Shown one piece after another: positions 11,385 through 15,352 of a stretch of DNA of 64,000 nucleotides. Numbering within the stretch: the first letter of the stretch is position 1; each line of letters starts with the position of its first letter. The translations under genes were made by a program, and so were the position numbers. The notes beneath the pieces were generated by a model, which did not search any database, was not told where the DNA came from, and saw only the letters and a program-made list of their open reading frames with translations. This DNA comes from Pseudoclavibacter terrae. Its GTDB lineage: Bacteria > Actinomycetota > Actinomycetes > Actinomycetales > Microbacteriaceae. The DNA is taken from positions 816,515 to 880,514 of the forward strand of contig NZ_WBJX01000001.1 of the NCBI RefSeq assembly GCF_008831075.1, written 5' to 3'.

Positions 11385-11498
11385 GATCTGGTCACGGCCA
11401 GCTGAAGATCTCCTCCGCATTCTGCGGACCTCGAAGCGCCTGACTTCCGCTCTATTCCGGGCCTCGTTACCTCGGCGTTAGGGTTCTGACACCGAAGC

Positions 11499-11527
11499 GT
11501 GACAATTCACAGGTTTTCCACTAGTGT
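11499..11527 (+). promoter_or_regulatory. Promoter of NlpC/P60 gene 1
   Basis: GTGACA (11499-11504), a 17-bp spacer and TAGTGT (11522-11527). The GTGACAATT core and the spacer length are the same in front of all three NlpC/P60 genes. Flanking half-sites at 11-bp spacing are weak here, unlike in copies 2 and 3. Confidence 0.6.
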
Positions 11528-11533
11528 TGTCCG

Positions 11534-11660
11534 AGTCATGAGCTATGCAATCTGCATAGCTGGCAGGCCGAGGCGCCGCATCCCGCTCCTCGACCTAGCT
11601 TCCCCTGGTAACAGGCAAGAGCGGGATCGGCTCCCAGGAGTCAGGCGCTGGAGGAACGAC
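11534..11660 (+). ncRNA. Structured 5' leader of NlpC/P60 gene 1 (candidate cis-regulatory RNA)
   Basis: About 127 nt between the expected transcription start and the TTG codon. It contains a perfect 9-bp hairpin (AGCTATGCA at 11541-11549 with 11553-11561, loop ATC). A second 9-bp stem (ATCCCGCTC at 11580-11588 with 11619-11627) encloses a hairpin closed by the GNRA tetraloop GTAA (11604-11615). The ribosome-binding site follows at 11650. I could not match it to a riboswitch class I know; it lacks the conserved ydaO (cyclic di-AMP) core. Confidence 0.45.
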
Positions 11661-12755
11661 TTGGAAAACTTTTCGAACGCCACGGCACCGCTGACGCGAC
11701 GCCAGGCTCGTGAGATCGAGCGCCGCACGGGCCAGCGCCCGGTGGCGACCGTCGGTGTCGCGGGTGTGTCCGCGCCGGTGATCGAGGCTTCGGTCGCAGA
11801 TATCACCTCAGCGCCCTCTGCATCTGTGCACGACACCGCACACATCGAGCGCAACGAACTCGGTGCGCTCGTCTCCGTGCTTCCCACGACCACGGCACTG
11901 CCCCAGGTCGCTGGCGATGAGGCCGTCGAGACGAAGCTCGCCGAGGTCATCGAGATCCCCGAGGCATTCACCGGGCGCTCCGTGACCATCCGGGCGGCCA
12001 AGCCTGCGACGCTTGTCGCTCGACAGCGTCGCCGCACGGCAGGTGGCTTCGCCGCCGCCGCGACTGTCGCGGCAATCGCCACGGCGGGCGTCGTCGTGCC
12101 CGCGGCTGTCGCCGACGGCAATGACTCCAGCCAGGCGCAGGCCAACCTCATCGGTGCGACCACGGTCGAGACCGAGACCCCGGCCGCCGAGCCCAGCGCA
12201 ACGGCAGAGGCAACCGAGCAGGCAGCTGCTGAGCAGGTCTCCGTCGACCTCGTCGCGGCTCCCGAAGTCGCCGTCGACCGCACCGAGTCGAGCGTCGTGA
12301 CGTTCTCGAGCGACCAGGTCGCCGAAGTCGTCGCAACTCCTGAGCCCACGGCAACGGCAGACACCCGCGCCTCCACCGGCGGCACGACGTCCACCGGCGG
12401 AAGCACCTCCGGCCAGGCCACCTCGGCATCGACCGCAGGCCAGAGCGTTGACTCCTCGAGTGTCTCTGCGGCGGCCATGAGCTACGTGGGATCACACTTC
12501 GGTGCGTGCGACCTGCTCACGCAGGCCGCGTACGCGGCTGTCGGTGTCTCGCTCCCGCGCGGCGTCTCCGCGCAGGCAGCCATGGGGACGCCGACCACGA
12601 ACCCGCAGCCCGGCGACCTCGTCGTCTGGCCGGGCGAGCACATCGGCATCTACGCTGGCAACGGCATGGTCATCGATGACCCGGGTTACGGCGGGCGCTC
12701 CGTGGAGTACCGCTCTATCTCGTGGGGCAGCCCCTACTACGTGACGCTCCGCTAA
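11661..12755 (+). CDS. NlpC/P60-family secreted cell-wall hydrolase, copy 1
   Basis: 364 residues, starting at TTG 11661 (GGAGGA 6 nt upstream). The N-terminus carries L-T-R-R-Q-A-R-E-I-E-R, shared by all three copies, then about 100 variable residues. A membrane or signal segment (G-F-A-A-A-A-T-V-A-A-I-A-T-A-G-V-V) lies near 125-150, followed by a Thr/Ser/Ala-rich linker and a C-terminal NlpC/P60-like domain. The candidate catalytic Cys sits in G-A-C-D-L-L and the His in E-H-I-G-I-Y; the usual D-C-S-G and preceding Gly-Gly loop are missing. Family members cleave peptidoglycan stem peptides. The N-terminal region before the membrane segment is unusually long for a signal peptide. Confidence 0.8.
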   Translation: MENFSNATAPLTRRQAREIERRTGQRPVATVGVAGVSAPVIEASVADITSAPSASVHDTAHIERNELGALVSVLPTTTALPQVAGDEAVETKLAEVIEIPEAFTGRSVTIRAAKPATLVARQRRRTAGGFAAAATVAAIATAGVVVPAAVADGNDSSQAQANLIGATTVETETPAAEPSATAEATEQAAAEQVSVDLVAAPEVAVDRTESSVVTFSSDQVAEVVATPEPTATADTRASTGGTTSTGGSTSGQATSASTAGQSVDSSSVSAAAMSYVGSHFGACDLLTQAAYAAVGVSLPRGVSAQAAMGTPTTNPQPGDLVVWPGEHIGIYAGNGMVIDDPGYGGRSVEYRSISWGSPYYVTLR

Positions 12756-12774
12756 GCAGCGATTCACCTCGACA

Positions 12775-12805
12775 AGCGCGTCCAGCTTCTGCTGGGCGCG
12801 TTTTG
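12775..12805 (+). terminator. Intrinsic terminator after NlpC/P60 gene 1
   Basis: GCGCGTCCAGC and GCTGGGCGCG pair around TTCT, followed by TTTTGTCGTT, 20 bp after the stop codon. Confidence 0.8.
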
Positions 12806-12840
12806 TCGTTATGGCTCCGTGATTCCACGTGCATTGATTT

Positions 12841-12880
12841 GTGACCTGGCCGTGACAATTCTGTGACCTTTGTGTAGGCT
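12841..12880 (+). promoter_or_regulatory. Promoter with three GTGAC repeats, NlpC/P60 gene 2
   Basis: GTGAC occurs at 12841, 12852 and 12863, exactly 11 bp apart. The middle copy forms the -35 (GTGACA), followed by a 17-bp spacer and TAGGCT (12875-12880). One-turn spacing of direct repeats overlapping the -35 is the layout bound by OmpR-family regulators. Confidence 0.65.
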
Positions 12881-12936
12881 CGAACGCGTCGAGGATGCCG
12901 GTTCCAACGGTGTTCGAAAACACCCGAGGAGAAGTC

Positions 12937-14115
12937 TTGAGCACATCGAGCACCCCGCGCACGGACAGCACCAAGGTGCTGACCCGCCGCGAAGCCCGCG
13001 CGATCGAGCGGCAGACCGGAGTTCGGCCAGCCGCCGCTCCCGCGGCAGTCACCGGGGTCTCTGCCCCGGTCATCGACGCGTCCATCGCCGAGCTCTCGGC
13101 CACGAAGGCCTCGCGTCTTGACGCCCCAGCAGCCTCCGTGCACGACACGGCTCGCATCGAGCGCAACCAGCGCGGCTCGCTCGTCTCCGTCCTCCCTGTT
13201 GCGCCCGCGGCCGACCGCGCCGCAGTCCAGGGATCCGAGCAGGCCGACGACGCGCCCTCGGCTGACGTGACCCACATCTCGGAGGCCTTCACGGGCCGAG
13301 CGGTCAGCATCCGTGCGGCCAAGCCGGCCGCGCTCGTCGCCCGCGGTCGCCGCCGCACGGCCGCGAGCTTCGCCGCCGCCGCGACGGTCGCCGCAGCCGC
13401 CACGGCAGGCATCGTCGTCCCAGCAGCTGTCGCAGACGGCAAGAGCGAGGTGCAGTCACAGGCCAACCTGGTCGCAGCGACCGCGCCGGACGCGACTGCC
13501 GCGCCTGCCGACGCCACCACCACCACTCCCGCCGCTGAGGCCGCGCCCGCCGAGGAAGCCGCCCTCGTCGCGGCTCCCGAGGTCGCCGTCGACCGCACTG
13601 ACTCGACGGTCGTCTCCATCTCGAGCGATGACCTGGCCGCGGTCGCCGAGACCCCGACTCCGACGCCGACTCCAGAGGAGACGCAGGAGCCTGTCGCTGA
13701 GTCGTCGACCTCGTCCAGCACCTCGTCTGGCGGCGGCACGAGCAGCCAGACCTCGACGACCTCGTCGTCATCCTCATCGGGGTCATCCGCAGGGGGATCG
13801 GGCAACGTCGACACGTCGAGCCTAATCGCCGCCGCGCACAGCTACGTCGGCTCCTACTTCCCTGCCTGCACCGATCTCACCAAGGCGGTCTACGCCACGC
13901 AGGGCATCTCGCTCTCCGGATCGGTCAGCAACCAGATCGCTGGCGCCCGCCAGACCTCGAGCCCCCAGCCCGGCGACCTCGTCGTGCAGCCTGGGGCGCA
14001 CATCGGCATCTACGCCGGCGACGGCATGGTCATCGACTCGCCCGGCTACGGCGGCAAGGTCGTGCAGTACCGCTCGATCTGGTGGAGCAACCCCGTCTAC
14101 TACACGTTCAACTAG
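12937..14115 (+). CDS. NlpC/P60-family secreted cell-wall hydrolase, copy 2
   Basis: 392 residues from TTG 12937 (AGGAG 5 nt upstream); an in-frame ATG at 12895 lacks a ribosome-binding site. Same plan as copy 1: L-T-R-R-E-A-R-A-I-E-R near the start, a membrane segment at about 155-180, then Pro/Thr repeats and a long Ser/Thr/Gly tract (about 255-300), then the NlpC/P60-like domain. The Cys lies in P-A-C-T-D-L and the His in A-H-I-G-I-Y; D-C-S-G is again absent. The end (G-Y-G-G-K-V-V-Q-Y-R-S-I) closely matches copy 1, so copies 1 and 2 are each other's nearest relatives. It has its own promoter, a small hairpin before the ribosome-binding site (12909-12924) and its own terminator. Confidence 0.8.
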   Translation: MSTSSTPRTDSTKVLTRREARAIERQTGVRPAAAPAAVTGVSAPVIDASIAELSATKASRLDAPAASVHDTARIERNQRGSLVSVLPVAPAADRAAVQGSEQADDAPSADVTHISEAFTGRAVSIRAAKPAALVARGRRRTAASFAAAATVAAAATAGIVVPAAVADGKSEVQSQANLVAATAPDATAAPADATTTTPAAEAAPAEEAALVAAPEVAVDRTDSTVVSISSDDLAAVAETPTPTPTPEETQEPVAESSTSSSTSSGGGTSSQTSTTSSSSSSGSSAGGSGNVDTSSLIAAAHSYVGSYFPACTDLTKAVYATQGISLSGSVSNQIAGARQTSSPQPGDLVVQPGAHIGIYAGDGMVIDSPGYGGKVVQYRSIWWSNPVYYTFN

Positions 14116-14146
14116 AGCTGTCCAGCGAGCTCTGGCCCGCTGGACC

Positions 14147-14184
14147 ACGACGCCGCGCGCAGCATCTGCTGTGCGCGGCGTCGT
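14147..14184 (+). terminator. Hairpin terminator after NlpC/P60 gene 2
   Basis: Near-perfect 18-bp inverted repeat (one wobble pair) with loop TC, followed by TCGTCGTT. A smaller 8-bp hairpin (GTCCAGCG, 14120-14145) precedes it. The sequence after both the copy 1 and copy 2 hairpins includes GTCGTTATG, so terminator and promoter were probably duplicated together with the gene. Confidence 0.75.
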
Positions 14185-14220
14185 TCGTCGTTATGCAAAC
14201 GTGTCTTTTGGGATGCTTCT

Positions 14221-14260
14221 GTGATCCCAGCGTGACAATTTCGTTATAAACCGATACGCT
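14221..14260 (+). promoter_or_regulatory. Promoter with GTGAT-GTGAC-GTTAT repeats, NlpC/P60 gene 3
   Basis: Half-sites at 14221 (GTGAT), 14232 (GTGAC) and 14243 (GTTAT), again 11 bp apart. GTGACA serves as -35, with a 17-bp spacer to TACGCT (14255-14260). A 6-bp hairpin (GCACCG at 14275-14280) lies in the short leader. Confidence 0.6.
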
Positions 14261-14311
14261 CTTCGGAGTCCAGGGCACCGGTCGGTGCTCAGCTCCACCC
14301 GAAGGAAATCC

Positions 14312-15352
14312 ATGAGCACCACGCTGACTCGTCGCGAGGCACGCGCCATCGAACGCCAGACCGGTGTGCGCCCCGTCGCGGATGCCACGACGTCGCTGAG
14401 CGCATCGGCGTTCGCCTCTGTCGCAAGCCCGCAGCCCACCGCATCCGCTCAGGCCGAAGAGACCGGTCGCATCGAGCGCAACGCGATCACCTCGCTGCTC
14501 TCGGTCGTCCCCGCCGAGCAGGTACCCGCCGCGCCCGCCGGAACGACCACCGCCGGATCCGTGGTGCCAGCATCGTTCGCTGGTGAGCGTGCCATGACGA
14601 TCCGTGCCCCACGCCCCAAGCAGCTCGTCGCCCGGCGTCGCGTGGCAGGCGGCCTCGCTGTCGCGGCTTCGCTCGCCGCGGTCACGACCGCAGGTGCCAT
14701 CGTGCCGAGCACGATGGCCGCTCCGGCCAGCGAGGCGAGCCTCTCCAGCGCCGTCGCAGCCCAGGACGGCACCTCCGACGACACCAACGCAGACGCGCAG
14801 AACGACCAGGCGTCCGTCGAGGCGGCCATCGCCGATGCGGTCGCCGACGCGACCCCCGCCGTCCCGGCGCCCGAGACCGTCACCGACCGCACCGAGACAT
14901 CGGTCGTCAGCTTCAGTGCAGACCAGGTCGCCGCCGTGGCGACGCCCGAGCCGACAGCCGAGGCGACTTCGGCAGACGCGACGAGGGCTGACGCCAGCGG
15001 TGCGACCGGACAGAGCACTGTCGGCGCGAGCGTCGTCGAGACTGCCTCGCAGTTCATCGGCGTCTCGCCGTACGTGTTCGGGGGAGCGACGCCAGACGGG
15101 TTCGACTGCTCCGGACTCGTGAAGTACGTCTTCGGCCTCCACGGTGTGGATGTCGCGCACGGCGTGAGCGCGCAGGCAGCCGCCGGTACGCGAGTCTCGG
15201 ACCCGCAGCCGGGCGACCTCGTCATCTTCCCGAACTTCCACGTGGGCATCTACGCCGGCAACGGACAGATGATCGACGCCCCGACCGAGGGCCGCATGGT
15301 CGAGCTCGGCGGCCTCGACGCAGGCGGCAGCTACTACTTCGTGCGCCTCTGA
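14312..15352 (+). CDS. NlpC/P60-family secreted cell-wall hydrolase, copy 3
   Basis: 346 residues, ATG 14312 after AAGGAA. It shares L-T-R-R-E-A-R-A-I-E-R-Q-T-G with copy 2, has a membrane or signal segment at about 110-135, a disordered acidic linker, and a canonical NlpC/P60 domain with V-F-G-G-A-T-P-D-G-F-D-C-S-G-L-V (catalytic Cys in D-C-S-G) and His in F-H-V-G-I-Y. It is therefore expected to be an active D-L or L-D peptidoglycan endopeptidase. Of the three copies only this one keeps the full catalytic signature. Confidence 0.88.
   Translation: MSTTLTRREARAIERQTGVRPVADATTSLSASAFASVASPQPTASAQAEETGRIERNAITSLLSVVPAEQVPAAPAGTTTAGSVVPASFAGERAMTIRAPRPKQLVARRRVAGGLAVAASLAAVTTAGAIVPSTMAAPASEASLSSAVAAQDGTSDDTNADAQNDQASVEAAIADAVADATPAVPAPETVTDRTETSVVSFSADQVAAVATPEPTAEATSADATRADASGATGQSTVGASVVETASQFIGVSPYVFGGATPDGFDCSGLVKYVFGLHGVDVAHGVSAQAAAGTRVSDPQPGDLVIFPNFHVGIYAGNGQMIDAPTEGRMVELGGLDAGGSYYFVRL

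Follow-up and report, generated by a model that had tools for sequence, protein, structure and literature searches.

In the genome of Pseudoclavibacter terrae (G000, 3.91 Mb) we analysed a stretch of 64,000 nucleotides (G000:C1:816515-880514, hereafter the window) that contains three tandem genes for predicted cell wall hydrolases of the NlpC/P60 type, which we call copies 1 to 3. We consider it likely that the three genes encode membrane-anchored hydrolases built on one duplicated chassis, comprising a promoter with an array of sites for the response regulator MtrA, a leader RNA (in copy 1), a membrane anchor, and a catalytic domain that is exchangeable. All our evidence on the locus is sequence comparison, from which we infer binding, the sign of regulation and RNA switching.

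All three genes match the NlpC/P60 domain PF00877 above its cut-off of 23 bits (37.9, 31.7 and 70.7 bits for copies 1, 2 and 3), as an initial annotation of this DNA had proposed, and they are the only three matches in the whole genome. Their proteins start with LTRR[EQ]AR[EA]IER, continue with one hydrophobic segment and a low-complexity linker (both delimited by eye), and end in the NlpC/P60 domain; the TTG start of copy 1 is assumed from its GGAGG ribosome-binding site. Among named relatives of the cluster, Pseudoclavibacter sp. AY1F1 is the closest (86% identity to copy 3). One cysteine column and one histidine column, the catalytic residues, are invariant in all eight NlpC/P60 domains that we aligned. 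The predicted structure of the copy 1 domain, made from eight sequences, keeps the NlpC/P60 fold (mean predicted local distance difference test score 87; best Foldseek match 8er5, E = 6.6e-07, template modelling score 0.71), and it confirms the fold only. In fold and in its conserved cysteine and histidine, copy 1 is like the NlpC/P60 endopeptidases 8er5, RipB (3pbi) and Cg1735 (8auc), whereas the GGxxPxGFD loop that stands before the catalytic cysteine in these enzymes, and in copy 3, is missing from copies 1 and 2. We know of no RipA-type protein with an N-terminal tail of the kind seen here.

The genes are also alike upstream. The sequence GTGACAATT has exactly three exact matches in the window (at 11499, 12852 and 14232), all standing before copies 1 to 3, and each forms a −35 element with a 17-bp spacer to a TAnnnT −10 element, just as the initial annotation had described. 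This 9-mer is not striking by itself, because with one mismatch allowed there are five matches in the window (2.9 expected) and 20 of 100 shuffled sequences reach that number. The longer pattern GTGACA-N17-TANNNT has four forward matches and no reverse match in the whole genome (one match for a reversed control); three of the four precede copies 1 to 3, and the fourth precedes a gene for a dicarboxylate symporter. Around the −35 elements, GTGAC-like half-sites repeat every 11 bp. Such repeats had been reported before copies 2 and 3, at 12841/12852/12863 and 14221/14232/14243, and they are there, with GTTAT as the third half-site of copy 3; the extent given was too short, in that copy 1 also has an array (three in-phase half-sites plus a GTTAG) and copy 2 has two more half-sites, at 12808 and 12819, for a total of five. 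The sequence GTCGTTATG, common to the regions after the terminators, contains the GTTAT half-site; relative to the core array this half-site is in phase in copy 2 and shifted by 2 bp in copy 3. A loose search for GTGAC-N6-GTGAC with up to two mismatches found no enrichment in the window (73 found, 98 expected) and was dropped as evidence, and the case for these promoters therefore rests on position and conservation.

Conservation of the repeats in relatives, which had been set beforehand as a test that could refute the idea, was seen in a comparison of ten genomes of the genus: 26 of the 28 cluster genes with a located LTRR start keep GTGAC and TAnnnT at an equal distance, all 26 of these promoters have at least one further in-phase G[T/A]nA[C/T] half-site, and 22 have at least two. 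We also assembled 40 distinct promoters from two genera, chosen only by GTGAC, TA and T at promoter positions and a downstream TRR[EQ] frame; offset 0 is therefore filled by selection in what follows, and no condition was set at the −11 or +11 positions. In-phase half-sites occur in four of the 40 promoters at −44, 24 at −33, nine at −22, 35 at −11 and 35 at +11, which makes frequencies of 30% at in-phase and 2.1% at out-of-phase positions. Two out-of-phase offsets have high counts, +2 (20 promoters) and +21 (21 promoters); they lie within the fixed GTGACA and at the −10 element. The background frequency of the half-site is 0.9% in the window and 2.4% in upstream regions. Six loci of the sister genus had earlier been picked with a requirement for GTGAT or GTGAC at +11, and a recount without that requirement returned an identical set of 40, while a slightly different rule of distinctness gives 42 promoters and counts of 37, 37 and 26. 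(In cluster sequence, loci L032, L033 and L037 equal genomes G073, G255 and G302, respectively; L032 and L037 are outside the promoter counts.) Across the 40 promoters the first half-site has G in 38, T or A in 37, A in 36 and C or T in 39, and is followed by C in 29, and its third base is free (C in 16, G in 19, T in 4, A in 1). The triple pattern GTNAY-N6-GTNAC-N6-GTNAY gave 24 rows at 19 distinct places in the ten genomes, 16 of them in clusters (one, in G301, before the second cluster gene seen in locus L204) and three elsewhere, with three matches for a reversed control. Because this pattern was designed on the cluster, its weight lies on its rarity elsewhere.

This phasing bears on an alternative in which GTGACA only serves the housekeeping sigma factor as its −35 element, while the repeats, left over from gene duplication, serve no regulator. 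GTGACA with a 17-bp spacer and TANNNT does make an ordinary promoter, and the five closest genomes are alike across the whole region, but we think this explanation very unlikely, given that two genera have conserved in-phase half-sites at −33, −11 and +11 and that the first half-site keeps its G, T/A, A and C/T and not its third base. Separately, in the sister genus we noted an unbroken run of five 11-bp-phased half-sites (GTTAT, GTGAG, GTCAC, GTGAC and GTGAT) before one cluster gene of genome G100 (L179:1408-1456).

The best candidate regulator of the three promoters is MtrA, which would bind them through these arrays. The genome has its own mtrA gene (G000:C7, locus L005), whose product scores 374.5 bits against the model NF040689 (cut-off 300), and its stretch ADTRLVNVHVQRLRAKVE, which we take to be the recognition helix, is identical to that of Mycobacterium tuberculosis MtrA (PDB 2gwr). 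The half-site pattern of the promoters is the published MtrA motif, including the free third base of the first half-site. In M. tuberculosis, according to the available text of PMC6265350, this motif is a direct repeat of cG[T/A]nA[C/T]c with 4-bp spacing, and the targets include wall hydrolases and division genes (ripA, rpf, wag31, fbpB); for Streptomyces coelicolor the same source gives nGTnACc. The consensus in Corynebacterium glutamicum is (A/G)TAACAATttn(A/G)TAACAAT in the available text of PMC3353115, as compared with GTGACAAT here. The clusters are thus like the M. tuberculosis MtrA regulon in repeat, spacing and kind of target, and differ from it in having up to five in-phase half-sites and a GTGACA that doubles as the −35 element. 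An MtrA-type regulator was among the suggestions of the initial annotation, and on this point it has held up.

The initial annotation had also pointed to the two-component pair at 0.5–3 kb of the window. Control of the cluster by the PhoP-like regulator of this pair (2264-2962), acting through the 11-bp direct repeats, now seems to us unlikely. The pair is approximately 9 kb from the cluster, and the best PDB match of its response regulator is M. tuberculosis PhoP (265 bits, against 159 for MtrA), a protein of the same OmpR family that likewise binds direct repeats with an 11-bp period (a 7-bp motif with a 4-bp spacer, in the available text of PMC4832192); against the MtrA model the window protein stays below the cut-off (208.3 bits against 300). 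Half-site composition and recognition helix, however, set our system apart from PhoP and its box. The PhoP box TCACAGC-N4-TCACAGC reads GCTGTGA on this strand, with GTGA as its core, and of 40 half-sites each, only 16 of the first and 25 of the third contain GTGA, as against 35 and 35 for G[T/A]nA[C/T]. Asn212, which contacts DNA bases in PhoP (PMC4832192, available text), appears to be replaced by Gly in the window regulator, as placed by hand on the alignment. By eye, there is no array before the PhoP-like gene, and none before mtrA either.

It is also quite unlikely that the binder is another OmpR-family regulator, neither MtrA nor the PhoP-like protein, even though direct repeats are general for this family (available text of PMC4832192). 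The genome has 13 matches to PF00486, seven of them typed and six untyped, but this motif has been published for MtrA from three genera, and the targets resemble those already known for MtrA. The unchanged stretch in the genome's own MtrA, presumably the part that reads the DNA, argues in the same direction.

A search of the genome for GTGAYN6GTGACAATT with up to two mismatches found 12 places, four in the cluster and eight outside. Three of these eight precede genes of envelope type: an M23 peptidase with a similar N-terminal tail (site approximately 40 bp upstream), a DivIVA-domain gene (approximately 60 bp), and a small exported protein of 202 amino acids (ORF 1554-2162 of locus L028) with no family above cut-off, preceded at approximately 35 bp by GTGAC-N6-GTTAC (L028:1501-1520, C8:27362). 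Across the family, 97 of 299 genomes have a match to the same pattern with at most one mismatch, and these sites may outline MtrA regulons. Three observations count against MtrA as the common regulator. The motifs of OmpR-family proteins, of which this genome has several, resemble each other; the other five of the eight outside places have no evident link to the wall and fall within genes, at the start of a gene or upstream of other genes (roles judged by eye); and the arrays differ, the +11 half-site being missing in copy 1, in its orthologues in four relatives, and in genes G274_1 and G234_3. As a side observation, the C-terminus of the 202-residue exported protein looks by eye to be of transglycosylase type.

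Copy 1, unlike copies 2 and 3, is preceded by a structured leader RNA; 163 nucleotides separate the −10 element from the LTRR codon. This leader is near-identical in the four closest relatives, where copies 2 and 3 have short leaders, as in our genome. More distant leaders differ in sequence and share a plan, which runs from a 5' hairpin through the first strands of helices PX, P1 and P2, the second strand of PX (PX', directly after the 5' strand of P2), a loop, and P3 to the 3' strand of P1 just before the ribosome-binding site. P2 is mostly CCCGCYC/GRGCGGG, and P3 is absent in some leaders. Comparison of the leaders shows that these helices covary, and a pseudoknot is probable. In a model-fitted alignment of 16 distinct leaders, which leans toward its own structure, 94.8% of cells pair and 10 of the 17 base pairs change on both sides; none of 500 shuffles reached either value, and slid versions of the alignment pair at 42–47%. 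Free prediction with RNAalifold on the leader alignment returned P1 and P2, and not P3. The 5' hairpin was predicted in 11 of 11 leaders (z-scores from −0.71 to −3.13, mean −1.95).

Because PX crosses P1 and P2, we tested it outside the model. In 25 leaders the strands of the same leader pair at −15.4 kcal/mol, compared with −10.1 kcal/mol for mixed strands, a difference reached in none of 20,000 permutations, and 16 leaders gave the same result; several of the 25 are close kin, and the permutation ignores kinship. Examples of full exchange are GUCCGAG/CUCGGAC, GCUGAGG/CCUCAGC and UUGCCG/CGGCAA. The sets comprise 16 of 19 rows (three near-duplicates left out) and 25 of 26 rows (G234_2, in which no P2 was found, left out); the larger set also does not include G234_3, G302_2, G301_C1, which breaks off at a contig end, or the leaders that precede copy 1 in four close relatives. 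PX, P1 and P2 may form together, as a pseudoknot, or compete, as a switch. Three results speak against the structure. The number of further pair types on P1 to P3 was also attained in 33 of 500 shuffles in one test and in 298 of 500 in another; the own partner of PX was the best one in only 5 of 16 leaders, because related leaders have similar strands; and the copy 1 leader folded alone has an unexceptional minimum free energy (z = −0.81), in place of which we used comparison.

The leader models were built in two rounds. In the first MAFFT alignment of 12 leaders P1 or P2 was misplaced in several rows, and model R1 was built from seven of them; model R2 derives from 17 R1 matches, and those that it gives in our own genus therefore follow from how it was made. 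The copy 1 leaders of G000, G188, G299, G073 and G300 took no part in building R1 and were found by it. Under strict filters, which lose weak matches, R1 is present in 9 of 299 genomes of the family and 2 of 85 genera, and R2 in only 1 of 396 genomes of the order, which is our own, in a draw that evidently held few members of the two genera. When searched directly, 9 of 11 genomes of the sister genus match the leader model below E = 0.1, including five (G682-G686) used for no model, and 9 of 10 genomes of our own genus match R2 below E = 0.01, G234 doing so only at 0.05. In loci L152 and L162 of our genome R2 finds the copy 1 leader only.

No Rfam family matched the leader: searches with two leaders up to E = 10 and with 13 loci at the gathering score gave no match to the ydaO (c-di-AMP) riboswitch family, and the matches obtained were tRNAs and chance matches to animal microRNA and long non-coding RNA families. 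The layout of the ydaO (c-di-AMP) riboswitch differs from that of our leaders. These results make it highly improbable that the leader is a strongly diverged ydaO element like the one before nlpC of C. glutamicum, in spite of the similar kind of gene, the translational leader and the MtrA-controlled promoter that the two have in common (available text of PMC9960051). A more tentative reading, to which we give somewhat less than an even chance, sees in the leader a new pseudoknotted cis-regulatory RNA class, known so far from two sister genera only, which perhaps acts as a switch for a ligand or for stress; with the MtrA arrays it would make a two-layer control unit on an anchor with swapped cutting domains.

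Several leaders depart from the common plan. In the second cluster gene of G302 (G302_2; L150/L158) the 5' half of the leader (the 5' strands of PX, P1 and P2, and the loop) runs into the LTRRQ codons, and there are neither the 3' strands nor a promoter of the usual form; the leader seems to have been fused into the coding region. PX may have two competing partners in the leaders of the sister-genus loci L179, L186, L187 and L184, where another strand able to pair with it, CUCGGU or CUCAGU, lies ahead of P2'. Pairing of PX' with the Shine-Dalgarno sequence was considered as a common mechanism and rejected, as by eye it is possible in some leaders and absent in others.

Comparison of clusters between genomes indicates that the catalytic domain is the part that changes. 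Behind the same type of promoter and the same N-terminal tail, genomes G274, G234, G683 and G020 have an M23 domain and G136 has a CHAP domain (Pfam, over cut-off). A leader also precedes these genes: it matches the model in G683, G020 and G136, was recognized by eye, with PX, in G274, and is degenerate in G234. Over the first 130 residues, each M23 or CHAP protein is 44–76% identical to an NlpC protein of its own cluster (53/111, 55/124, 96/126, 55/121 and 74/119 residues), while over the last 110 residues the same pairs have alignment scores of 25–55, below the 69 that shuffled N-termini can reach. The N-termini are alike and the catalytic ends unlike, and we therefore conclude that, after duplication, the enzyme was exchanged or remodelled while its control was kept. 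The NlpC domains themselves are of two recurring types, one with DCSG or DCAG and a GGxxP-like loop and one without the loop (ACDLL, ACTDL or DCTD), which includes copies 1 and 2. On these alignments, the chassis (promoter plus cytoplasmic tail and anchor) has been kept while the catalytic ends were exchanged among canonical NlpC/P60, loop-less NlpC/P60, M23 and CHAP domains. The duplicated gene-plus-control unit under one OmpR-family regulator that was originally proposed is therefore retained here, but not as a set of identical units: only copy 1 has the leader RNA, and relatives also combine the unit with domains other than NlpC/P60.

In our own genome, a protein similarity search with the N-terminal tail found copies 1 to 3 only, and a search for its codon pattern found five places, of which one is copy 1 and one is a spurious frame. 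We also saw a TRRExRExE stretch at L218:1501-1527, L219:1501-1527 and L220:1501-1527 (C5:281079, C6:261351 and C8:198065). In this order, the proteins are a MurJ-like membrane protein (named by eye), which has the stretch in its C-terminal tail, an M23 peptidase, which has it at the N-terminus, and a tail-anchored protein (named by eye). As a lead only, this stretch is perhaps a common cytoplasmic address of envelope proteins in this lineage.

Table 1. Coordinates, in the window, of the three hydrolase genes with their control elements and of the two-component pair.
Feature	Position	Strand	Details
Copy 1 promoter	11466-11527	+	In-phase half-sites GTTAC 11466, GTTAG 11477, GACAC 11488, GTGAC 11499
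Copy 1 core promoter	11499-11504; 11522-11527	+	−35 GTGACA (overlaps GTGAC half-site); −10 TAGTGT
Copy 1 leader RNA	11534-11660	+	Model match 11562-11656; helix limits by eye
Leader helix PX	11566-11571 / 11589-11595	+
Leader helix P1	11572-11577 / 11644-11649	+	Ends directly at ribosome-binding site GGAGG 11650-11654
Leader helix P2	11582-11588 / 11619-11625	+
Leader helix P3	11629-11633 / 11638-11642	+
Copy 1	11661-12755	+	Cytoplasmic N-terminus (LTRRQAREIERRTG...), one hydrophobic segment, linker, variant NlpC/P60 without GGxxPxGFD loop, Cys/His kept
Copy 2 promoter	12808-12880	+	In-phase half-sites GTTAT 12808, GTGAT 12819, GTGAC 12841, 12852, 12863
Copy 2 core promoter	12852-12857; 12875-12880	+	−35 GTGACA; −10 TAGGCT
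Copy 2	12937-14115	+	Architecture as copy 1; variant NlpC/P60 (PACTDLTKAVY) without GGxxPxGFD loop; short leader without structured RNA
Copy 3 promoter	14221-14260	+	Half-sites GTGAT 14221, GTGAC 14232, GTTAT 14243
Copy 3 core promoter	14232-14237; 14255-14260	+	−35 GTGACA; −10 TACGCT
Copy 3	14312-15352	+	Architecture as copy 1; canonical NlpC/P60 (GGATPDGFDCSGL); short leader without structured RNA
Sensor histidine kinase	492-2225	−	Adjoins the PhoP-like regulator gene
PhoP-like response regulator	2264-2962	−	Judged a less likely regulator of the cluster

We propose that each unit would begin with a sigma-70-type promoter whose −35 element lies inside an 11-bp-phased array of MtrA half-sites, continue with a structured leader whose end adjoins the ribosome-binding site (present in copy 1 and, in most sister genomes, before at least one gene), and go on to encode a conserved cytoplasmic tail, a membrane anchor and an outward catalytic domain. 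Phosphorylated MtrA, whose gene is on another contig, would bind the array head to tail and repress the promoter, with relief during wall building or cell division; the alternative is activation from the upstream half-sites. We lean toward repression, because the half-sites cover the −35 element and, in copies 2 and 3, the −24/spacer region of a promoter with good core elements. By analogy, it would most likely resemble the repression by MtrA of nlpC and mepA in C. glutamicum. In that species, according to the available text of PMC3353115, MtrA represses from sites near the −10 element and activates from sites upstream of the −35 element; our sites lie between these positions, which weakens the argument, as the sign of regulation could go either way. 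The leader of copy 1 would set translation, because P1 abuts the ribosome-binding site, and would thereby add a second, translational layer of control on that gene. The cytoplasmic tail may recruit the enzyme to, or hold it at, a division or polar complex. The hydrolases would have a role in the separation of daughter cells.

The closest known system is nlpC (cg2402) of C. glutamicum, an NlpC/P60 gene repressed by MtrA and controlled by a translational c-di-AMP riboswitch (available text of PMC9960051 and PMC3353115). The combination of MtrA control with a translational riboswitch on an NlpC/P60 gene is thus already known, and our locus is like it in having a promoter with MtrA sites and a leader RNA before such a gene. 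It differs in its leader without an Rfam match, its anchored chassis with a cytoplasmic tail, its tandem array and its exchangeable domains, and in that MtrA control is predicted. Our searches of the open-licence literature turned up no paper that deals, in Microbacteriaceae, with control of these hydrolases by MtrA or with a leader of this kind; as far as these searches show, the long in-phase arrays in this family, the leader and the chassis with exchangeable hydrolases are new. Since PF00877 has no match in the genome beyond these three genes, all NlpC/P60 activity there may be governed by the control unit. Our findings would extend the wall-hydrolase regulon of MtrA to Microbacteriaceae, with a promoter code that can be read sharply. 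They would also point to modularity in how regulated wall hydrolases arise, with a changing enzyme on a constant regulation and anchor, and, if this is true, a new cutting specificity would be born already regulated and addressed.

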